From the NCBI GenBank assembly GCA_947258555.1, contig CAMYJF010000020.1:4538-54137 (forward strand): DNA of 49,600 bases. Direction: 5' to 3'. The DNA is from an uncultured Eudoraea sp. GTDB lineage: Bacteria; Bacteroidota; Bacteroidia; Flavobacteriales; Flavobacteriaceae. The notes under the pieces were generated by a model. The model was not told where the DNA came from. It ran no database searches and was given only the letters and a program-made list of their open reading frames with translations. Each line of letters opens with the position of its first letter. Positions within the stretch are counted from its first letter, which is position 1. Shown one piece after another: positions 32,281-35,200 of the stretch. The position numbers were made by a program, and so were the translations under genes.

Positions 32281-35200
32281 ATGAAAAATAAGGTACCTAA
32301 GCTAATTTGCGATGCCAATGAGGCTGTCGCACGGATCGCTCATAAAACCAATGAAGTTTGTGCTATTTATCCTATTACCCCTGCATCGCCCATGGGAGAA
32401 CATGTAGATGTCTTCAGTTCTAAAGGGCAAAAAAATATTTGGGGCAATGTGCCCAGGATAGTTGAAATGCAGAGTGAAGGAGGGGCAGCGGGAGCCGTGC
32501 ATGGATCCTTACAAGGAGGCGCATTAACTACTACATTCACCGCTTCACAGGGATTGCTTTTGATGATCCCCAATATGTAGCAACCAGGCAAACAGGGTTC
32601 TCGATGTTATTCGGCGGATCTGTTCAGGAAGCCATGGACTTTGCACTGATCTCGCAGGTGGCAACCTTAAAATCGAGGGTTCCATTCTTAAACATATTTG
32701 ACGGTTTCCGGACCTCTCATGAAATATCTAAAATAGATGACATTCCTGATGATGTGATCAAAGCAATGATGCCTGATGACAAGATCATGAAACATAAAAA
32801 ACGCTCACTAGATCCGGACCATCCGGTGATCCGTGGAACTTCTCAAAATCCTGATGTCTTTTTCCAGGCCAGAGAAGCAGCGAATGCCTATTATGAAAAA
32901 GTTCCTGGTATTGTGCAGGAAGTCATGGATGATTTTTATACGCATACGGGGAGAAGATACAGCCTGTTCTATTATATAGGTCATCCGGAAGCAGAACGAG
33001 TTGTCATTATTATGGGATCCGGAGAAGGGGCTGTCAGAGAAACTGTTGAAACTATGGTTGAAAATGGAGAAAAAGTAGGCGCCGTTTTTGTACGCCTGTA
33101 CCGTCCGTTTTCTGTAGAAGACTTTATGGATTGTATCCCTGATTCCGCCAAAAAAATAACTGTTCTTGACAGGACTAAAGAGCCCGGTAGTACTGGGGAA
33201 CCTTTATATCTTGATGTAGTTACTGCTTTTGCAGAAAGTAAACGTAAAATGCCTTTGATCGTAGGAGGTCGATATGGACTCTCGTCTAAAGAATTCAATC
33301 CGGCTATGGTTAAGGGGATCTATGATGAACTTCTAAAAGTCCAGCCGAAAAATCATTTTACAATAGGAATACACGATGATGTTGGGCATACCAGCCTTTC
33401 TTATGACCCTGTTTTTCCAACAAAGAAAGATACCTTCAACTGCATGTTCTATGGTTTAGGTTCTGACGGTACCGTTGGCGCCAACAAGAACTCTATCAAA
33501 ATTATTGGGGAGACCACAGATAATTACGTGCAGGGATACTTTGTCTATGACTCCAAAAAAGCCGGTGCTCAAACCGTTTCACACTTGCGTTTTGGCCCGG
33601 AACATATTTATTCCTCTTACCTGATCAATACAGCCGATTTTGTGGCTTGCCATCAATTCAACTTTGTGGAAAAATACGATGTGCTAGACCACATTAAAAA
33701 GGGAGGCACATTCTTGCTGAATGCGCCGTTTTCCAAGGATGAAATTTGGGATAAACTACCAAAAGTCATCCAGGAAGAGATCCTGGAGAAAGAGGTCAAA
33801 TTTTACATAATAGATATTTCGGGGATATTGCCACGCGAAGAGGCTATTAAGAAGATAAAGGATGCAATCGTCAAGACATATTCTCACAAGGGTGATGATA
33901 TTGTAGAGATGAACTTCAAAGCAGTCGATACGGCCTTGGCGCATCTTGAGAAAGTAGATTATCCAAAACAAATAACCACAGATAGGGAATTGAAACCTAT
34001 TATGACGGGCGAACCCGATTATTTCGTCCAGGAAATATTAGGTAAGATCCTGGCGGGCAAAGGCGATCAACTTCCTGTAAGTGCCTTTCCTGTAGACGGC
34101 ACCTTCCCTACAGGCACCTCACAATATGAAAAGCGAGGTATTGCCGATTTCATTCCAATTTGGGATGATGAAGTACTTTGTACCCAGTGTAACAAATGTG
34201 TGGCTATTTGTCCACATGCGGCCATAAGGGCCAAGGTAGTGCCTAATGAAATTCTCGCTTCTGCCCCTGGTACGCTGAAGACTATAGCTGCCAAAGGAAG
34301 ACCTTTTAACAAAGAAACAGAATCCTATATACTACAGGTGTCACCTGAGGATTGTACGGGCTGTGATCTTTGTGTCGCAGTTTGCCCAGCTGAAAGCAAA
34401 GAAATAGAAAATTTCAAGGCAATTAATATGCGGCGAAAACTTGAGACGGATGAGGTTGAGAATGAGCATTGGGACTATTTTATCGATCTCCCGGATTACG
34501 ATCGGGCTGCCCTGCAAATAACCAATGTGAAGGGATCTCAGTTCCTGGAACCTTTATTTGAGTTTTCGGGAGCTTGCTCCGGATGTGGGGAAACACCCTA
34601 TATAAAAATGCTTACGCAACTTTATGGGGATAGTATTCTGATCGCTAATGCGACGGGTTGCTCGTCTATCTACGGAGGGAACCTACCCACCACCCCATTT
34701 AAACGAAATGAGGAAGGTAGAGGACCGGCATGGGCCAATTCTTTATTTGAAGATAATGCTGAGTTTGGTTTTGGAATGAAACTGGCATTAACGAAAAAGC
34801 AAGAGATCGCAGTAGATCTGTTGCGCTCCCTGGAGAAAGAACTGGGTGCGGAAATGGTTGATGCCATAGTATCGAATCCTGAGGATAACGAAGCCCAGCG
34901 CAAAAAGAAATTTGAAGATCTCGATATTTTGGATGCGAAACTAAAAACGATAGTTGATAATCCTAAGGCCAAAAAACTGAGCAAGCTTACCGAATATTTG
35001 AGGAGGAAAGCGGTTTGGATCCTAGGTGGTGATGGCTGGGCTTATGATATAGGCTATGGCGGTGTAGACCATGTACTGGCATCCGGAGAGGATATCAATA
35101 TTATGGTGCTCGATACGGAAGTATACTCCAATACGGGAGGGCAAACTTCAAAAGCAACTCCATTAGGGGCAAGTGCCAAGTTCTCTGTCAGCGGTAAGCG

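Follow-up and report, generated by a model that had tools for sequence, protein, structure and literature searches.

Two segments missing from the nifJ gene of an uncultured Eudoraea genome most likely reflect assembly gaps joined without Ns

The nifJ gene of the window, by which we mean the whole 49,600-nucleotide stretch of DNA analysed here, lacks two short segments in the assembled sequence, and we consider it probable that both losses come from small assembly gaps that were closed up without Ns and that the organism most likely has an intact nifJ. The gene lies in two pieces at 32281-35642 on the + strand, broken at the stop codon at 32578. From its profile matches it is assigned to PFOR (nifJ; TIGR02176), the identity given in the initial annotation: this equivalog model matched in two stretches with 1380.3 bits and was above its cut-off of 911.35 in the 1012-aa part. 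A single frame of about 1170-1180 codons is expected for PFOR, and in its place we found 99 codons, a TAG and 1020 codons. The 5' fragment (32281..32580, + strand; M...IPNM) starts at ATG 32281, covers positions 5-79 of the 231 positions of the POR_N profile and ends with the TAG at 32578-32580. Homology picks up again at GCA 32580 in a different frame, just as the earlier reading had described, and the large piece (32580..35642, + strand) remains open for 1020 codons up to its stop, with the POR_N match beginning again at profile position 122; its mechanical open reading frame of 1012 aa starts from ATG 32604, 23 bp past the first stop. Fer4 (two stretches, with two [4Fe-4S] ferredoxin motifs) and the C-terminal TPP_enzyme_C were each found above cut-off. 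Domain III (POR, PF01558) was incomplete, since its best stretch covered profile positions 1-117 of 173, against 1-172 in the same-genus genome G001, and 24 residues are gone. Outside the missing pieces, the window gene is alike along its length to known PFORs such as those of Desulfovibrio africanus (1B0P/7PLM) and Moorella thermoacetica (6CIN), but compared with its intact relatives it is short of 100 bp of domain I, the pyruvate-Arg segment, and of 72 bp of domain III. A DNA search of the genome found the gene once, with no second nifJ copy.

The genus is represented in the collection by three genomes, the window's own (G000) and two others (G001 and G002), both of which carry nifJ in the same neighbourhood. 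The BLASTN alignment of the window gene was interrupted at the same two sites in both relatives. At junction 1 (32579..32580, + strand), exactly 100 bp are absent compared with G001 and G002, a length of 1 modulo 3 that causes the frameshift, in agreement with the earlier estimate of about 100 bases. The loss comprises one base of codon 100 and codons 101-133 of the G001 gene and includes the Arg of the HVxAR motif, which had been rightly placed in the lost part. At junction 2 (33815..33816, + strand), exactly 72 bp, or 24 codons, are absent in frame in the same comparison, and the frame stays open despite the loss. Because this second loss is in frame and leaves the open reading frame open, it is not visible from the reading frame alone. 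The alignment with close relatives, which the initial annotation had suggested as a check, made the first loss exact and overturned the claim of a single lesion followed by 1020 intact codons. The two gaps are 1236 bp apart, both within nifJ; were two gaps placed at random in the aligned window, the second would share a gene with the first with a chance of about 7%. The PFOR genes of G001:C333 and G002:C5 lie in a collinear neighbourhood and are 96% and 93% identical to the window protein in its C-terminal part, but they have no segments missing and show frames of 1215 and 1184 codons. In the window, no further alignment gap of at least 9 bp was found in HSPs totalling 33,589 bp (G001) and 45,524 bp (G002), which partly overlap; smaller gaps do occur in these alignments, and about 1.2 kb (mainly 11519-12657) aligned to neither genome. 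We also searched the genome for the missing segments as displaced pieces or a second copy and found none, the only matches outside the gene being three at chance level (E 0.3-0.6).

Alignment to solved PFORs placed segment 1 at residues 99-131 of the D. africanus enzyme (DaPFOR, 7PLM numbering), a stretch including Arg114 and Leu121, and segment 2 at its residues 546-569, within domain III. Segment 2 also contains G-R-x-N residues, which we take to be a CoA contact in the Moorella PFOR. According to the structural description in PMC5020499, the pyruvate carboxylate is recognized in DaPFOR by Arg114 and Thr31, and Leu121 lines the pocket; a figure legend in PMC8945911 gives domain III as residues 416-627. 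The equivalent of Arg114 is absent from the window gene, falling within the missing 100 bp. Since the pyruvate-Arg segment and a segment of domain III are both lost, we infer from the sequence that the PFOR product as assembled would not be active. A remodelled but working PFOR, made up of a 99-codon and a 1012-aa polypeptide with shortened domains I and III, is highly improbable. Both pieces are open and conserved, and an ATG closely follows the stop, as such a split enzyme would have it, yet the residue that binds the pyruvate carboxylate is missing and most of the lost columns (29 of the 33 in segment 1 and 18 of the 24 in segment 2) are invariant in an alignment of 24 close relatives. Of 35 PFOR loci, moreover, 34 had at least 1100 codons in one unbroken frame, the 35th (L057) sitting at a contig end; in this count L033 (the G002 locus) and L051 come from a single contig, and L050 was excluded as lying on the same contig as L032 (the G001 locus).

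The junction ends were analysed for traces of the event that removed the two segments, with the bases of the relatives used as a stand-in for the missing DNA. The microhomology that the initial annotation had proposed looking for amounted to 0 bp at junction 1 and 1 bp at junction 2, and no direct repeats were found at the deletion ends of either junction. In 20,000 simulated cuts, microhomology of 0-1 bp occurred in 83.5%. Both joins are blunt, as arbitrary cut points produce. As to causes residing in the DNA itself, unusual conservation between co-occurring species was weak as a reason for the breaks, with 13.7% and 16.5% of windows equally or more conserved (DNA, 24 relatives). A strong hairpin as the site of the break or deletion was set aside as well, because the segments, as they stand in G001 and G002, showed unremarkable folding (z from -0.68 to -1.15, with two control stretches at -0.67 and 0.60). 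The GC content of the missing segments was 48% and 47%, compared with 43.5% for the G001 contig. DNA conservation, folding and GC of the segments thus pointed to no special cause for a break at either site.

The selection that has acted on the rest of nifJ bears on whether the lesions are real. The omega value between the window and G001 was 0.031 (dN/dS 0.03), and synonymous and nonsynonymous codon changes stood at 90:11 on the window branch and 99:8 on the G001 branch (Fisher p 0.47). In the three remaining pieces of nifJ, we found no stops and no other frame-breaking lesion. These results indicate that the rest of the gene is fully constrained and that relaxed selection is not seen, though none would be expected yet after a very recent event. 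If the loss were real, a rough estimate limits the nonfunctional period of the gene to no more than about 1.8% of the window branch, or about 16 substitutions' worth. This reading, that nifJ was inactivated extremely recently by a frameshifting deletion of 100 bp and an in-frame deletion of 72 bp, leaving a PFOR-negative strain that handles pyruvate by pyruvate dehydrogenase with the KorAB-type enzyme untouched, is unlikely in our view. Both lesions do stand in the assembled sequence and, within the aligned window, they are limited to one gene. Against it, selection is not relaxed, the deletion ends are free of direct repeats, and two large blunt deletions would have arisen in the gene with not one small frame-breaking indel or nonsense change elsewhere in it.

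We then consider the assembly of G000, in which 444.5 kb sampled outside the window contained three runs of N. One of them, a scaffold gap of 95 N (G000:C20:4443-4537; L043), lies directly before the first base of the window on the same contig and has a true length of 56 bp in G001 and G002, the value in G002 being 58 bp minus two unaligned bases. A run of 82 N (L099:2978-3059) has a true length of 55 bp in G001; by more distant genomes it would measure about 53 bp (G033) or about 205 bp (G009), where flanking indels are possible. The third (L106:626-722) has 97 N where G001 and G002 each have 173 bp. Judged by the same-genus genomes, the gap lengths are off by +39, +27 and -76 bp, and gap sizes in the G000 assembly are unreliable. 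The assembly is therefore one in which collinear pieces of 55-173 bp drop out, and the nifJ losses of 100 and 72 bp lie within that range. With sizing errors from +39 to -76 bp, the estimated size of a true 72-100 bp gap could come out at about zero. We also considered whether the 95 N ahead of the window were a mask set by the operators and rejected this, since a mask preserves length, yet here 95 N stand for 56 bp.

Unmarked gaps were sought elsewhere in the assembly, in a total of only about 0.11 Mb of the 2.73-Mb genome. Another 31,282 bp of the sample could be aligned to a set of 40 stretches of G002 contigs; no unmarked deletion was found there, and the same comparison yielded three insertions of 11, 15 and 17 bp, all in L096. 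Within two 20-kb stretches, the HSP spans showed no large difference except about 2.7 kb extra in G001:C78. This piece (G001:C78:3692-6527, against about 19732-19853 of L074) is absent from both the window genome and G002 and looks like an insertion in G001. That no unmarked gaps turned up in the sequence sampled elsewhere speaks for a real loss, and the fact that this very assembly has mis-sized scaffold gaps of similar length speaks against it.

These observations can be accounted for if the contig was assembled from shorter pieces and collinear stretches of about 50-170 bp were lost between some of them. At the two sites in nifJ, the pieces would have been joined directly with no Ns in between, at the cost of 100 and 72 bp; the joining would have been done by a scaffolder or gap closer. 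Such an artefact is favoured by the blunt joins, by the mis-sized scaffold gaps of the same class, by the full constraint on the gene and by the position of both gaps in one gene with none elsewhere in the aligned window. It is also favoured because two large deletions would have had to occur, yet no other frame-breaking lesion, within so short a nonfunctional period. On the other side, neither junction carries an N, though the assembly marks gaps elsewhere, and gene-specific decay fits the occurrence of both gaps in one gene as well as a local coverage problem does. As described in PMC3158087, the assembler Meraculous joins gaps of negative estimated size only if reads bridge them. In favour of the artefact, spurious bacterial pseudogenes made by assembly, with frameshifts and internal stops, have been documented in a study whose account sets truncations aside and leaves metagenome assemblies unassessed (Cooley and Wright 2024, PMC11017572). 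The case of nifJ is similar to these in that a constrained gene appears broken in a single draft assembly and its relatives have it intact, but its lesions are of 100 and 72 bp, while that study centres on frameshifts and internal stops.

The metabolic setting was examined in the window and in the rest of the genome. A gene pair for the beta (28591-29604, - strand) and alpha (29606-31468, - strand) subunits of a 2-oxoacid:acceptor oxidoreductase (the 'KorAB' pair, 28591-31468) was found before nifJ; TIGR03710 was above its cut-off, and PorB_KorB scored 242 bits, below its cut-off of 261.9. Between this pair and the PFOR gene lies a ferredoxin gene (31655..32005, + strand) matching the YfhL-type dicluster ferredoxin model. 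Right after PFOR, a gene for a 127-aa protein (35660-36043, + strand) is covered by the DNA alignment to G001; the protein had no Pfam or NCBIfam match. The genome also encodes a pyruvate dehydrogenase E1-alpha of 345 aa, which scored 433.6 bits against a curated cut-off of 393.85. With genes for E1-alpha and the KorAB-type enzyme present, a real loss of PFOR would probably be tolerable, and to this extent the context agrees with a true deletion. The initial annotation had stated that, if the break is real, the strain has lost PFOR while keeping KorAB; judged from the profile match, keeping KorAB appears a fair description, but the evidence favours an artefact over the loss of PFOR.

PFOR also looks dispensable in the family, as a strong match over the gene was found in only 12 of the 36 genomes of the family that were searched (G001-G036), and one of these 36 (G007) has a PFOR remnant in at least two frames. 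This patchy distribution, together with the remnant, provides a precedent for real loss and counts against the artefact. The remnant itself (L090:5115-5722; G007:C3, about 181,100-181,700) looks like a decayed nifJ and is nearest to a more distant PFOR type, being 54-66% identical to pieces of L038 and L010. Outside the family, a contig of a Sulfurimonas single-cell genome (NZ_JAEMVB010000020.1; L066) encodes a PFOR 56-58% identical to the flavobacterial type described here. The near-match search of plasmid records gave no match, and among viral contigs there were three pattern matches, none of them a relative. A literature search on nifJ or PFOR pseudogenes in Bacteroidetes and Flavobacteriaceae found no paper.

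Ranked by likelihood, misjoined assembly gaps come first and are the explanation we hold with good confidence, real and very recent deletions come second and are rather doubtful, and a working split enzyme comes last and is scarcely credible. The earlier statement that the damage is either very recent or an artefact stands, with the evidence leaning to the artefact without settling the matter. It is improbable, by our estimate, that the window captures a newly arisen double lesion, perhaps still segregating, in a flavobacterium that is losing PFOR by repeat-free deletions while retaining pyruvate dehydrogenase and the KorAB-type enzyme; if true, this would give a clear instance of PFOR having been lost very recently in a lineage bearing pyruvate dehydrogenase. 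The broken nifJ is present in the sequence, but it is most likely not a real feature of the bacterium. The case shows that a silent in-frame loss of 72 bp is missed by checks based on open reading frames and becomes visible only against near relatives. If nifJ is intact in the organism, the annotation would carry a false pseudogene, and the metabolic reading that PFOR was lost and KorAB kept would be wrong.
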